Shown here piece after piece: positions 5,911-54,573 of a stretch of 64,000 nucleotides of DNA. The position numbers were made by a program, and so were the translations under genes. How positions within the stretch are numbered: the stretch's first letter is position 1; every line of letters begins with the position of its first letter. The DNA lies in the NCBI GenBank assembly GCA_026413225.1, contig CM048553.1:41394001-41458000 (forward strand), given 5' to 3'. The stretch comes from Otis tarda (lineage: Eukaryota; Chordata; Aves; Otidiformes; Otididae). The notes beneath the pieces were generated by a model. That model was not told where the DNA came from. It worked only from the letters and a program-made list of their open reading frames with translations, and did no database searches.

Positions 5911-12355
<6,445 letters not shown>

Positions 12356-12502
12356 CTCACAAAACATAGGCAACTTTTTGGCAAAATCCACCACTCTTGT
12401 AATCGCTGGTGTGATAATTTTTGTAAACTGGCTGAAGGCTTCTAAATCCACTTTCCCACCTTCTGGGGCATTAACTATTGGTGCCTGCCCAATATCTTCT
12501 GG
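12356..12502 (-). CDS. THRB: THRB exon 8: start of ligand-binding domain
   Basis: This 147-nt exon has phase 0 at both ends and encodes residues 262-310 of TRbeta2. It begins [20 protein letters not shown] and ends [13 protein letters not shown]. This covers the hinge end and helices 1 to 3 of the ligand-binding domain. The helix-3 segment [14 protein letters not shown] forms part of the hormone pocket and the lysine side of the coactivator charge clamp. Splice sites are good: the acceptor reads GTATCCTTAG and the donor GAG|GTAAGAAAA. The residue Gln in SQFTKI is the only visible difference from the human protein that I recall (SHFTKI). No break is present. Confidence 0.97.
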
Positions 12503-17838
<5,336 letters not shown>

Positions 17839-21787: not shown

Positions 21788-21888
21788 CTTGCAACCTTCG
21801 CAAGTGATGCAGCGATAATGATATCCGGTGGCTTTGTCCCCACATACTACACATAGCTCATCCTTGTCTAAATAACTGGGTATATACC
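21788..21888 (-). CDS. THRB: THRB exon 5: first zinc finger, first exon shared by all isoforms
   Basis: This 101-nt exon contributes two bases to Gly110 of TRbeta2 and then encodes [20 protein letters not shown] to CITCEGCK (residues 111-143). The zinc ligands are Cys122, 125, 139 and 142 in C-x2-C-x13-C-x2-C spacing. The P-box CEGCKG, completed by the next exon, fixes half-site choice (AGGTCA). All N-terminal variants splice here, and the incoming phase (one base supplied upstream) matches the beta2 exon, the TRbeta1-type exon and the TRbeta0 exon, each of which ends with a single G. Acceptor TTTCTTTACAG and donor AAG|GTAAATG are good. Confidence 0.98.
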
Positions 21889-32110: not shown

Positions 32111-32438
32111 CTTTCTTCTGAGAGTACGATGGCGACTGCACTTGAGAAAAAGTAGGTTTTTCTTCGGTGAAATATTCAGGTTGGTTGTACTGATTCAGGG
32201 CCATGTCCATATCAGAGTACTCGCTTTTAAACACGTTTCCAGGGTAACTACAGGTATAAGGCTGATTCACCGCCCAGGCCTGTTCCATATATATGTTGTT
32301 ACTGTGCAGGACCTGAGCATCGCAACTGCTGTAACCCTGATTTTCTTCAATATACGTGCAATAATCAGTGGACTGCATGTAGCAATTGCTACCAGCAGCT
32401 GGGTGCACTTCATATATTTCTTGCATACAGTAGTTCAT
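32111..32438 (-). CDS. THRB: THRB beta2 first coding exon (TRbeta2 A/B domain)
   Basis: This exon starts at ATG 32438-32436 and ends with one G before the donor AAG AAA G|GTAGGGG. It encodes the 109-residue N-terminus specific to TRbeta2, beginning MNYCMQEIYEVHPAAG and ending FSQVQSPSYSQKK. The A/B domain is rich in Tyr, Gln and Ser and serves as an activation region (AF-1). TRbeta2 is the isoform of cone photoreceptors, pituitary and hypothalamus, needed in cones for long-wavelength opsin expression. With exons 5 to 10 it gives 476 residues, the same length as I recall for the human protein. The start is chosen because it matches the family and because stops lie just upstream in this frame. 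The antisense 129-codon frame is a shadow. Confidence 0.98.
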
Positions 32439-39236: not shown

Positions 39237-39500
39237 CTTTACACTTTTTTTCTTCTTTTTGGTATTCCTGGGCACTTGGTATGACTTGAAAGTTTGCTTT
39301 TGTATGGCCTGGCTGTAAAATTGTGCTAGTCCAAGCTGAAGCATGTCGACATCGCAAAAGCTGGTGTCCATTCCTCTGAGTATCACAGTTTTTGGAGTGT
39401 CTTTTCCTACAAAAACGGGTTTCCACTACGCCCACTACATTCCATTTCTGATTTCTGTCAGGAAGGTGAATCAGTTTGTCCCATGATAGGAGGCCACGTC
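39237..39500 (-). CDS. THRB: Putative THRB exon 4: TRbeta1-type A/B domain, intact frame
   Basis: The minus strand has an open frame ending SAQEYQKEEKKCKG before the donor AAAG|GTAACTGG. Its stretches GLLSWDKLIHLPDRNQKWN, CRKRHSK, AWTSTIL and SAQ-x-x-Q-x-EEKKCK align in order, with one residue of gap, to the mammalian TRbeta1 N-terminus (GLTAWDK..HCPDRE..W, HRKSHSE, TWTSSIF, SAQTFQTEEKKCK, as I remember it). The donor leaves one G, the phase needed by exon 5. The 5' edge is uncertain: acceptors CATCCAG|GACG at 39500 and CCCTGCAG|TACTT at 39518 are both in phase with exon 3, giving 264 or 282 nt. The frame has no stop, although the sequence has diverged much more than the rest of the receptor. 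Birds are generally described as lacking TRbeta1, so its use in mRNA is unproven. Confidence 0.72.
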
Positions 39501-42282
39501 CTGGATGTCTGGCAAGTACTGCAGGGCTACAAACTGTTGGCATTGCCAAAATCTTGCTCAGGTGTGGAGTTTTGGAAAGCAAGAGGTTCCCCAACTCTCC
39601 TGATGATGTGGTATTCCCATGCATCTCCACTTGACCGCACGGATACGACGCCGAGCCTTTCAGCCATGCCCATTCAGCCACCATAGTTCCCCTTCGGTAC
39701 AGGTACATATAAAATTTTCCCGTCTGTGAAGCCTGAACAAGTAGGCAGATCTGTGTGGACACGCTAATGCTAGATGTAACTGTCACAACATCACAACTAC
39801 AACATGGGCCTGAGGGCAAGTTACCACCAATTTATTGCCTTGCTCATATGATCATTTGAGGTCTTGTAGGTCGAGGCTGGTCGTGAACAATTTTCAGATA
39901 CTTAAAACACAAAACATCAAGGATTCAGCCTTGTTTGACTTTGCTCTTATCGTAGGCTGACCTGAGGGACACTCTGTTACCTAAGTGTGACACTCTTATG
40001 TGGGCACGCTTAGCAGTTCCGCTTTTGCTACCTACTGCCTTTCTGCAGTTGTGGTCACAGTGGAGTATCAGAGACACTAATTTTATCACAGGAATTTGGA
40101 CATTTGGGTCCACTGCAGATAACAAGCAACTCTGCAGCTGCATAATTTGATCTAATCAGTCATAATGACTTGTTAAATTTATTTGTTGTTTGATAGAGAA
40201 GAAACTGAGATAAATCTGTAAAACTAAATAGAGCATATTTTCTATTTCTGCGTAGCAAAACTAAATGATACAGAAATGACACATCAGAGATGATATTCCA
40301 CATTTAAGGAAATTATTTTATTTTGTATTATATGTATCAAAATTCAAAATAGCTTTTAAACTTGCATACAGAAAATAGCAAATTCCAGACATTTGATGAC
40401 TGATATCCACTGTGGTTTTAATCATGGTAAGACTCTGCTTTTTTAATAGACCTAAGAGTTAATTTTACATACATTTCACTCAGTAAAGTAATTAGTATAC
40501 ATATCAGTAAATAAGGGCATACTAAGTCAATAATTTCCTGATAAAAATGATTAAAAATAACTTTGGATTTCAGTTACCAGATCTATTGTACCATTGCTGT
40601 TTTTGTAAATTTTGTCTGAAGGCTTTTGTTAAGTGGAACATTGCTAATATAGGATGTATTCAGAAGACTTAATTATGGTTGGAATGAAATACTGTTATCC
40701 TGTGTTAAACCCTGATAGTATATGTAGCTTTCCTCAATATCTTATGTAATTTTAAATGTAAATGCATACCTTTTTTTTTTTCTGCTGGGAGTGTAAGCTC
40801 ATCTGATATTTGAATTTAAAAGTCTATTCCTTCTACTCACTCTATCTCAGCTGGACATTCAATAAAACAGATTTGTATAGGAAACTATCTGGCATCACAG
40901 ACTTCAATGCAAAGGGCACGTAAGTTAACTACAGGATTTGCACTTACCTACTTACTTCTGGTTTCATAGATCTGCTCTTAGTTCAGACTTGGTTTTCTTA
41001 GTAAAATTAAAAACTAACTCTAAGTGCAGGTAATATGGCAAGAGAATATCACTTGTAGGAGGATAATCAGATTTAAAATAGAATAGTGAAAGTAACCCAG
41101 GAAATACTAGGCAATTTTAAAAAATTCAAAGAACAGAATATAAACTTTTTTTTTTTTCATAATTTGAACACTTTTCTATCTTCTAGACTTCATAATAAGT
41201 TTAAGCTCAGAGGGAGAGACTGGATTGTTCTAGTAAGACTGGGAACTGCACAAAACTTCCCTGCGAGATCTGAACCGAACTTGGCCACTTCACTCTTCTT
41301 GGCACAGAGAGCAACTGTGCGCTGTAGCCCACCCTTCCACCAGGCTCTGTGTAACCTCAGATAACATACCCTTCTGTACAACGCTACTCTCCTCTTCCTT
41401 GTCTTCCTTCACATTCTAGTTATCTCTCTGCAGGGATAATTTTGCACCTTTATACAAATGCAAGAGTCAGGCATGTGCAATATATATTAAAAATATAGGC
41501 ATTTCTGTAATTCACTAATCAACAGATACTTCTACGTTTTGTCAATTTCTTGAGCAGACCACTCACCCCACAGAATTCTCAGCCCTGTTTAAAAAGTGTG
41601 GATTTGCTTTATGTTTGATTTTGATTAAAAACCATACACTCACTGCAATGGTAAAACTTTTGCTCCCCAAGGATTCAGAGAGGTCGTCACACAAAGCTTA
41701 CAGATTTTTAAGTTTAGCAAGAGACTCTAAAACCCGCCTCATCTTAAGAAAGAAAATTAAAACATATTTTCCAATTTCTGTGTTTGCAAACCTGCTTTGG
41801 GATTTTAAAACATGAATCCAGACACATTTAAACAATGAGAAGAAACGGATTCTATTATAGCTTCCATCATTTGCAATTTGCCCAGGCAGAGTTTACAAAG
41901 GCTAACCCAACATCAAGCAGCTTTATTCTCTCTTTTCCTTTAAGCTCCCTCTGAAATTTGTCTCACTACTTTTGACTCCTATGCTAGCTACAGTTTATTT
42001 AATTTTACAAGCTTCCACTTTATTTCACTAATTCCCTTCAGTCACCAGGGACATTTTACATTCAAATTTTGCTAGACGACTATTAAATTGTAAGGAACTA
42101 CCACTGAGGGGTTTCATATTTTGTCTCCTTTCCTTATACTTTCTGTACCGTGGTGCAGCAGGTATGTATGTCCTAAATAACCATTCAGCTTATTAAAATG
42201 TTAAATTACAGTTTCACTACATTATTTATTCTACTCCCTTTGTTTTAACATGTCTTGCCTGAATTTTTCTAAAGCATTTTGC

Positions 42283-47300: not shown

Positions 47301-48865
47301 AGCAGATGTTGCAAAGCTAAAAAACCACATATTTGTTTTCTCTGTTCTTTGTGAAATCCAGGTCCAAATTTTTAAAAAAAATCTGTGTATCTTATGTGGA
47401 AAATGTAGCAGGTATCCATGAGTTGTAAATACCAAACTTAAACACCTTTGGAAACACATAGACGTAAGATCTTCATATTTCTCCTAAAGAAAAAAACACT
47501 CTTTAGAGAGCCTTTTTTCTCCTACGATGGGAAAGAAAACCCCAATACACTATTAAAGAATTGCATAAAAAATTGAAACATTACAAAATGTTATACAGAC
47601 TACTTGTCTTTTGAAACTTGTGTATTTATATAGCACTTTTTGAAAGCCCTTTTTAAAACATTAAAGTTTAAAACAAAAAAAAAGTTAAAATTAAACCAGA
47701 ATGTCTGTAACCTAGAACTTACCAAGTGTGATATTTTTAACTGCACATTGAAAAATACGCTTCTAAGTAATAAGAGCCATCATGGAGTGATTCATAGCTT
47801 CATGCAAAAACATCCCACAATATAAATCTTGTTAACCTTTTGAAAATCCCCAAAAGCTCATTACAAAGCTGCTGAATCCTGGCATAACAAAACCTTATAT
47901 TAAAGTATTTACTGTCCTTCTAAAACGTCCATTACTTAAAAGAAATAATACACTTGAGTCAGTCAGATTTTATCATGTCTGGCAGACAAGTGTCAGGCAG
48001 TGATGTAGGTCAAATTAAATTATCCTAGGAAAACCATTCTAGAAATTCAGGAGAAATAATTTCTCAGCTGAAGTTACACAATAAACTATTCTCCATCTGA
48101 ATTAATGGCAAGTTAACAGGTTAATAAGCATTACAGTGAAAAGACTAATGAAGAAAAGGTGGTACCTTTCCTATCCTATACTTTTGCAAGTTCTTGGAAA
48201 CTACATGTAACACCCTTGGAGACACTGGTTTTCAAATGGATTTGTTGCACAAAAGCTGATTAATTTTCTTCTCAAAATGAGTGACCTGTTACAAGAAATG
48301 CTGCATATTAAATTCTACTTACTGAAAATATGCATTTATGACATTTAAATTATATTCCCTAATGTAAGCGCTTAATTTTATTTTAATTCCTATCTTGACC
48401 TAACTTTACAGTCATTACCAAATAGAACAGCGTGACTATTTGAGAGTGGAAGCACAATGTTTGAGTCAATTATGAAACTCCAAGTGAAATCAGAGTAAAA
48501 TCTTGGCCTTATTGAAGTCAGGATAAGAGTTGCTGCAGACTTCACTGACACTGCTGTTACACCCTTCACATTCTATCTTCATCTGCCATGAAGGTGAAAT
48601 TAGTGAGATTTACTGTATTCTACAAACAGTGTTTTCCGGTTTTTAGAACACATTCTTGAATTCCTTCTTCAGTGCTCACTGAAGCAGATGAAGCAAGAGC
48701 AAGATCTTCCTGAGGCTTGTTCTGCATTTTTGGAGAAAATGTACAGAAGGAAGCCTTCAGTGACAGATTAGTGCCAGTAAATAATGACTACTGCAAGTGA
48801 ATAGTGATGCTGAAGCTTTACTAGAATATTCAAAACAGCACGAATTTTTTTCCATTAACTATGTT

Positions 48866-49208
48866 AGAATCATAGAATCATAGCATAGTTAGAGTTGGAA
48901 GACACCTTTAAAAGTCATCTGGTCCAACCCCCCTGCAAGGAGCAGGGACATCTCCAACCAGATCAGGTTGCTCAGAGCCCTGTCCAACCTGGCCTTGAAC
49001 GTTTCCAGGGATGGGGCATCTACCACCTCTCTGGGCAAGGCAACCACCACTCACTCATTGTAATTTTTTTTTCCTTATATCAAGTCTGAATCTACCTCCC
49101 TGTATTTTAAAACAATTAACCTTTGTCCTTTCGCAACAGGCCCTGCTAAAGAGTTTCTCTCCATCTTTCTTGTAAGTGCACTTTAGGTACTCGAAGACTG
49201 TTACATAC
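48866..49208 (-). mobile_element. CR1 3'-end fragment, 5' truncated
   Basis: The plus strand begins with AGAATCATAGAATCATAG, the reverse complement of the CR1 3' terminal repeat, followed by the standard CR1 tail (GTTGGAAGACACC and CATCTGGTCCAACCCCCCTG). The element therefore lies on the minus strand, and only about 340 bases of its 3' end remain. It has a small deletion after GGGCAAGGCAACC relative to the other copies here, so it is moderately old. Confidence 0.93.
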
Positions 49209-52582: not shown

Positions 52583-52647
52583 CTGACATACTGCTGGGAG
52601 TTATGGATATGTAATCATTCTTGTTCTTCTTCTGTCACCAAAGTCAC
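52583..52647 (-). CDS. THRB: THRB exon 3: 5' UTR end and start codon of TRbeta0 (MS-)
   Basis: A 65-bp exon follows a very strong acceptor (TTTTTTCCCTTTTTTGGCAG) and ends at the donor ATGTCAG|GTAATC. Only seven bases are coding (52589-52583): ATG TCA G. Joined to exon 5 they give M-S-G-Y-I-P-S-Y-L, the start of the short 369-residue avian TRbeta0. The bases before the ATG, ATAACTCCCAGCAGT, closely match what I recall as the mammalian TRbeta1 start (ATGACTCCCAACAGT). The exon is thus the homologue of mammalian exon 3, but the first Met codon is ATA here and the second Met is used. The donor also lies nearer the ATG than in mammals. A five-codon upstream ORF (52618-52601) precedes the start. 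Confidence 0.85.
52601..52618 (-). other. Five-codon upstream ORF (MITYP) in THRB exon 3
   Basis: On the minus strand ATG at 52618 opens a frame of five codons ending TAA at 52603-52601, 11 bases before the TRbeta0 ATG. The stop overlaps the position where the mammalian TRbeta1 start codon would be. If translated, it would reduce initiation at the main start or require reinitiation. Confidence 0.45.
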
Positions 52648-53357: not shown

Positions 53358-53620
53358 CCCTCAACTTTTTGCCAAAGCTCCTTTAGGTCTAATATGTAAT
53401 TTTAGGAGCTAATTGTTTTTTACTCTACAGATTCTAAGGATATACACCCATTACTCTCAGGTTCAGAAAGAACAGAGGATTCAAAGGAATTAGAAATTCT
53501 CTGTCTACAGTTTCACTGATTATTCTTCAATCATCTGAAACACAGAATTTTTTTAAAAGTTTGGAAATGTAAATAGTAATTTTACTCATTTGATAGAAAA
53601 TGAATTAATACATATTTATT

Positions 53621-54573
53621 AGAATCATAGAATCATAGAATGGTTAGAGTTGGAAGGGACCTTCAAAGGTCATCTAGTCCAACCCCCCTGCAAGAAGCAG
53701 GGACATCCCTGACTAGATCAGGTTGCTCAGAGCCTCATCCAGTCTGGCCTTGAACGTTTCCAGGGATGGGGCATCCACCACCTCTCTGGGCAACCTGTTC
53801 CAGTGCTCTACAACTCTCATTGTAAAAAATTTTTTTCTAATATCTAATCTAAACCTACCTCCTTCTAATTTAAACCGATTACCCCTTGTCCTATCACAAC
53901 AGGCCCTACTGAACAGCTTCTCCCCATCTTTCCTGTAGGCCCCCTTGAGGTATTGGAAGACCGCTATCAGGTCTCCCCGGAGCCTCCTCTTCTCCAGGCT
54001 GAACAGCCCCAACTCTCTCAGCCTGTCCTCATAGGAGAGGTGCTCCAGCCCTCTGATCATCTTTGTGGCCCTCCTCTGGACCCTTTCCAACTGGTTCATG
54101 TCCTTCTTGTGTTGGGGACTCCAGAACTGGACACAGTACTCCAGGTGGGGTCTCACCATGGCGGAGTAGAGGGGCAGAATCACCTCCCTCGACCTGCTGG
54201 CCATGCTCCTCTTGATGCAGCCCAGGATGCGGTTGGCCTTCTGGGCCGCAAGGGTGCATTGCCCACTCATGTTGAGCCTCTCGTCTACCAGCACTCCCAA
54301 GTCTTTCTCCTCAGGGCTGCTCTCAATCCATTCTCCGCCCAGCCTGTATTTGTGCCTGGGATTGCCACGACCCAGATGCAGGACCTTGCACTTGGCCTGG
54401 TTGAACTTCAAGAGGTTGGCACGGGCCCACCTCTCCAGCCTGTCCAGGTCCCTCTGGATGGCATCCCTCCCTTCCAGCGAGTCAACGGCACCACACAGCT
54501 TGGTGTCATCGGCGAACTTGCTGAGAGTGCACTCTATCCCACTGTCCATGTCGCCGACAAAGATGTTGAACAG
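53621..54573 (-). mobile_element. CR1 retrotransposon, 5' truncated, with long open frame
   Basis: This 953-bp copy on the minus strand ends with the 8-bp CR1 3' repeat (ATTCTATG units read on the minus strand). It is the best preserved copy in the window. A single 278-codon frame (54549-53713) encodes the C-terminal part of the CR1 reverse transcriptase, including the catalytic FADDTKL and the following CR1-specific region [19 protein letters not shown] to the final LSNLI stop. The 5' half of ORF2 (endonuclease and the first RT blocks) and ORF1 are missing, so it cannot move by itself. The open frame suggests a fairly recent insertion. The bases ATGTTGAACAG occur at the upper edge and again 17 bases further. 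Confidence 0.96.

Follow-up and report, generated by a model that had tools for sequence, protein, structure and literature searches.

In mammals, the A/B domain of TRbeta1 is encoded by THRB exon 3 together with exon 4. The available part of PMC10076699 describes two TRbeta1-specific coding exons in mouse and mentions a TRbeta1-like isoform for chick retina. The portion of PMC2579430 accessible to us lists TRa, TRb0 and TRb2 as identified in chick retina, which agrees, for the chick, with the usual account of TRbeta0 and TRbeta2 from which the original prediction set out. Does a bird THRB locus hold a TRbeta1-type A/B exon and, if so, how far does this exon extend and how is it entered? We addressed this question in a stretch of 64,000 nucleotides from Otis tarda (the window), in which an intact minus-strand frame resembling the mammalian exon had been predicted.

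THRB exons in the window

The window carries the common part of THRB. Exons 5-10 (21888-5911) lie in order with sound splice sites, encode a complete DBD and LBD, and remain open to the stop. Within a long intron region, downstream of exon 3 and upstream of the TRbeta2 exon, sits an exon that we call exon 4L. The features, all on the minus strand, are as follows.

52583..52647, minus: exon 3 with the TRbeta0 start ATGTCAG/GTAATC (ATG at 52589), read from the sequence; its left boundary is inferred from TTGGCAG
39685..39732, minus: possible untranslated start of exon 4L if the acceptor TTGTTCAG/GCTTC is used, suggested by acceptor score and sequence
39237..39684, minus: coding part of exon 4L (ATG, 149 codons and one base) encoding a long A/B domain, from stop-free translation, shared start and frame in models, and donor score
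39501..39684, minus: front extension of exon 4L (residues 1-61) with the blocks MVAEWAWLKG and HLSKILAMPT; no counterpart in mammalian TRbeta1
39237..39500, minus: back part of exon 4L, homologue of mammalian TRbeta1 exon 4, from tblastn, shuffles, the junction of mammal models at ENGLPAW and an acceptor score of 1.27
32111..32438, minus: TRbeta2-specific coding exon, found with human TRbeta2 (tblastn, 81% over 91 residues, E 4e-53) and its donor
21788..21888, minus: common exon 5, first zinc finger; its phase fits the donors of exons 3 and 4L
17691..17838, minus: common exon 6 (tblastn and splice reading)
15694..15899, minus: common exon 7 (tblastn and splice reading)
12356..12502, minus: common exon 8 (tblastn and splice reading)
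7591..7849, minus: common exon 9 (tblastn and splice reading)
5911..6152, minus: common exon 10, coding part with stop (tblastn and splice reading)

The locus had been called avian, and this is borne out by bird residues such as CIFVG, as opposed to CIYVG in turtle and Anolis models, and by the nearest relatives, which are birds. With regard to exon 3, the human peptide gave a weak tblastn alignment to the window (E 0.94). Opposite the mammalian first Met (MTPNSM), this alignment puts ATA (52604-52602), and the ATG of exon 3 follows six residues on, giving TRbeta0. A mammal-type start in exon 3 was rejected on account of this ATA, and 0 of 29 sauropsid proteins begin with MTPNSM. Joined to exon 5, exon 3 yields the TRbeta0 form. 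The long exon is passed over in this form, and hardly any A/B domain is left (MSG ahead of YIPSY); chick TRbeta0, as given in the available part of PMC2579430, belongs to the same gene and uses the same common exons. The TRbeta2 exon offers a parallel to exon 4L, being an alternative 5' coding exon that brings its own ATG and joins exon 5 in the same phase, but its sequence is unrelated to that of exon 4L and far better conserved with mammals. As judged by tblastn with human probes, exon 4L diverges much faster than the TRbeta2 exon.

Two minor observations concern the rest of the locus. Short tandem ATAGAATC-like repeats, which we take to resemble the 3' ends of CR1 elements, occur at 48863-48886 and 53618-53641. 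Eleven of the 43 predicted THRB proteins, 6 from birds and 5 from mammals, lack exon 8 (12356-12502); the frame continues, but 49 residues at the start of the ligand-binding domain are lost.

Homology and extent of exon 4L

An open frame by itself is little evidence here, because the plus strand too has a 118-codon open frame at the same place (39330-39686, overlapping exon 4L), which bears no sign of function. The predicted homology to the mammalian A/B exon was nevertheless confirmed by alignment. Human TRbeta1 residues 10-95 matched 39495-39235 on the minus strand of the window by tblastn with 42% identity (E 7e-15), and the alignment contains neither stops nor frameshifts. The original prediction had named failure against shuffled controls as grounds for rejection. 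The back part of exon 4L scored 174 against a gibbon TRbeta1 model (P0028), whereas 1000 shuffles gave a mean of 27 and a maximum of 55, so that 0/1000 reached the observed score. Moreover, when the window was compared with a sequence of human exon 4, third positions differed at 49 of 87 codons against 61 of 174 first and second positions (Fisher p 0.001), an excess that is a coding pattern, provided that the human DNA used is accurate.

The donor AAAG/GTAACT, with 39237 as the last exon base, scores above 98.7% of the minus-strand GTs in the window. It is a phase-1 donor and joins in phase to common exon 5 at 21888, as had been predicted. The window thus holds a homologous A/B exon with a phase-1 donor to the common zinc-finger exon, as in mammalian-type TRbeta1, to which the back 88 residues are homologous. 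The frame and the donor at 39237 of the exon as originally delimited therefore stand; its upstream limit does not, since the conserved coding frame begins at the ATG at 39684. This ATG has an A at -3 and a G at +4, a good start context, and the window sequence has the MVAE start and about 149 open codons running into exon 5. The arrangement differs from that of mammalian TRbeta1, which starts in exon 3 (MTPNSM) and splices into the exon, whereas in the window the start lies within a longer exon with 61 extra residues, and exon 3 has ATA. No Pfam family matches the exon 4L product, and a search of solved structures with the mammal-like part as query returned a single chance match (E 2).

The long A/B domain in predicted proteins

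Three protein searches returned 43 distinct relatives (23 birds, 5 lizards, 1 turtle, 13 mammals and 1 ENA entry), all of them automatic gene predictions; the matches stand for clusters, and the counts below apply to the matches listed. With the frame as query, 19 proteins out of 20 candidates were obtained. All 19 are bird THRB models (19/19), 70 to 83% identical, and all start well upstream with MVAEWAWLKGS or a near variant. The goose protein as query (24 matches of 61 candidates) added zebra finch, chicken (UniProt A0A8V0X623), woodpecker, tinamou and the lizard Anolis sagrei, and an artificial query (25 matches of 197 candidates) added four further lizards, a sea turtle and mammals. Among the predicted proteins returned, the long A/B domain is carried by all 23 birds (chicken, goose and tinamou included), the one turtle and 5/5 lizards. 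The MVAE start is present in 23/23 birds, 1/1 turtle and 3/5 lizards, the other two lizards beginning at an inner Met. Crocodilians, snakes, tuatara, monotremes, amphibians and fish are missing from the 43 matches. This is weak evidence of absence, as a search of this kind finds a predicted protein only if it has short words in common with the query. The ENA entry (P0042, outside the window) fuses the TRbeta1 A/B region and first zinc finger to another receptor, presumably a retinoic acid receptor, and is probably a laboratory construct.

The exon itself is thus already present in databases, as public predicted models contain the long form. In birds and lizards, the predicted models labelled THRB isoform X1 describe in effect this same protein; those that include exon 8 have lengths of 514 to 517 residues. 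They are automatic predictions, and neither an account of the exon nor a comparison with mammalian TRbeta1 was found for them in our searches of the open-access literature. A long avian or reptilian TRbeta was likewise not found among the top-ranked open-access titles; most subscription journals lie outside that scope, and such a form may be in print. Within the same scope, no remark was found on the exon as a conserved long A/B exon that carries a start codon of its own, or on mammalian TRbeta1 as its shortened form.

The alignment of 32 proteins and the window shows that the extension is kept better than the mammal-like part. The window is identical to turtle at 46/60 positions in the extension against 47/88 in the mammal-like part, and to Anolis at 35/60 and 43/89, respectively. 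A tree of the 29 sauropsid rows implied 494 amino-acid changes, 312 among birds alone; its topology recovered lizards, parrots, woodpeckers and passerines as groups, with the antbird beside the crow and the tinamou beside the chicken as oddities. Bird changes were spread unevenly, with 4 in the first ten residues (MVAEWAWLKG), 7 in HLSKILAMPT and 43 in the most variable ten.

The mammal models place their junction within this long exon. Nine of the 13 start with MTPNSM and join at ENGLPAW or ENGLTAW, and a seal model has a different upstream sequence joined at the same ENG. A ground squirrel model (P0029; 1/13) reads straight through from MVARCPKLTNSAS into NPLENGLPAW and so carries a diverged copy of the extension; the other 12 lack the front extension, as judged from protein models only. 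It is the meeting of unlike upstream ends at ENG, together with the squirrel read-through, that locates this junction. The squirrel extension is identical at 31/60 positions to that of turtle (0/1000 shuffles reach the score) and at 29/60 to that of the window. From the squirrel-turtle match it follows that the front part is older than the split between mammals and reptiles. Mammalian TRbeta1 looks like a truncated derivative that is spliced into the middle of an older exon.

Entry into the exon and competing readings

At the level of sequence, these comparisons demonstrate homology, an open frame, a matching donor phase, and a start and blocks shared among predicted models. Our best estimate (a probability of roughly 0.7) is that exon 4L serves sauropsid THRB as a functional, alternative 5' coding exon and that mammalian TRbeta1 descends from the same exon. 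Translation would begin at its own ATG and give a 149-residue A/B domain, and the good donor would lead into common exon 5, yielding a TRbeta of about 516 residues alongside TRbeta0 (exon 3 to 5) and TRbeta2. We infer that the exon is transcribed and translated. A/B domains of nuclear receptors tune transactivation and cofactor use, and the long domain would likewise tune transactivation or hormone response. In the mammal lineage, an internal acceptor joined to an upstream ATG exon would have taken over, and the front 61 codons would have become intron.

The transcripts probably enter through an acceptor near 39732, or begin in or just before exon 4L. The acceptor at 39732 scores 4.51 (97.9 percentile), the best in 39480-40300. 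In a transcript spliced from exon 3 to 39732, the exon 3 ATG would open a 21-codon upstream frame that ends just beyond the main start, and an in-frame ATG at 39708, in weaker context, would also be included. Of the other candidates, the acceptor at 39809 would keep the frame open from exon 3, but such an extension is found in 0/23 bird models. The acceptor at 39518 is in frame with a score of 2.24, yet has no homologous support; the original prediction had offered this position as a boundary, but it is not the mammalian one, the homologous internal acceptor being CCAG/GACG at 39500.

This internal site raises the possibility of mammal-like use, in which exon 3 would be spliced to 39500 to give a 457-residue TRbeta1 beginning MSGRGLLSWDK. 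The corresponding position in the window has an AG, and a junction there keeps the frame of exon 3. The acceptor's score of 1.27 (90.9 percentile of minus-strand AGs) falls within the range of six known acceptors scored for comparison (0.17 to 9.85; the exon 3 acceptor is outside this set), and the score alone therefore does not exclude its use. The tract before 39500, however, reads gcagtacttgccagacatccag, which is pyrimidine-poor with further AGs shortly upstream, whereas the squirrel residues before the junction (LVFFNPL) imply, as read from the protein, a pyrimidine-rich tract. In turtle, PPKNG leaves no AG before the position of the mammalian N codon, again as read from the protein. None of the 29 returned sauropsid models begins as this 457-residue form would, and the 23/23 bird models start at the ATG 184 bases upstream of the internal acceptor; mammal-like use would also leave the conserved front 61 residues unexplained. 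We consider such use quite improbable, and the predicted entry from exon 3, as in a TRbeta1 exon in the mammalian sense, is not upheld. Exon 4L is probably a working coding exon, yet not one of the mammalian TRbeta1 type.

The exon might instead be decaying or unused, open by chance and spread into databases by gene prediction. Its relatives are known from gene predictions alone, and early chick work, as far as the available part of the source goes, did not find the long form. A single intact pair is not rare under neutrality either, as the frame survived in 33/300 and 36/300 runs of a neutral simulation to 80% identity. Replacements were about as conservative as expected by chance (-0.40, se 0.09, in birds; -0.31, se 0.07, in all sauropsids; neutral -0.44), a measure that fails to separate selection from neutrality in birds. 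Such near-neutral replacements do not favour selection at the protein level, although the same pattern could arise in an A/B domain that is disordered. Decay is harder to reconcile with the models of 23 birds, a turtle and lizards, which retain the frame, the start and the phase of the donor. That these groups have preserved the exon speaks against the relic that the original prediction had set against a functional exon. At 77% identity with turtle and roughly 50% with the squirrel read-through, the extension is closer than neutral sequence would be expected to remain since these splits. Among birds, about 22 nonsense changes would be expected under neutrality (ratio 0.072, window's codons) and 0 were seen, a contrast that is overstated because broken copies would escape annotation, which biases any absence of stops. 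Taken together, we regard decay as unlikely. It is very unlikely that a regulatory DNA or RNA element was conserved here with the frame incidental. Its location in a long intron region and the near-neutral replacement spectrum would suit such an element; against it, start, frame and donor phase are kept jointly in the aligned models (subject to the same annotation bias), third positions show an excess of differences from the human exon 4 sequence used, and what corresponds to the back part in mammals is coding sequence.

If the long form is expressed, the set of isoforms considered in work on bird and reptile TRbeta has been incomplete, and probes from the common exons cannot distinguish the long form. 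If the proposed descent is true, mammalian TRbeta1 gains an origin, namely an older, longer exon shortened by an internal splice site. A further-reaching scenario is conceivable but doubtful: the amniote ancestor would have had an extra TRbeta isoform, begun at a start codon of its own and equipped with an A/B domain of 149 residues, which sauropsids still use, while mammals cut away its best-conserved part through the internal splice site. The conserved LSKIL block in the part lost by mammals could dock on the AF-2 surface of the receptor itself or of a partner, giving bird and reptile TRbeta a response to thyroid hormone of which mammalian TRbeta1 is incapable. The sole ground for this guess about docking is the motif itself. 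LSKIL, an LxxIL motif, is present in 5 of the 6 proteins checked (window, chicken, tinamou, turtle and Anolis, not squirrel), and goose has LSRIL.
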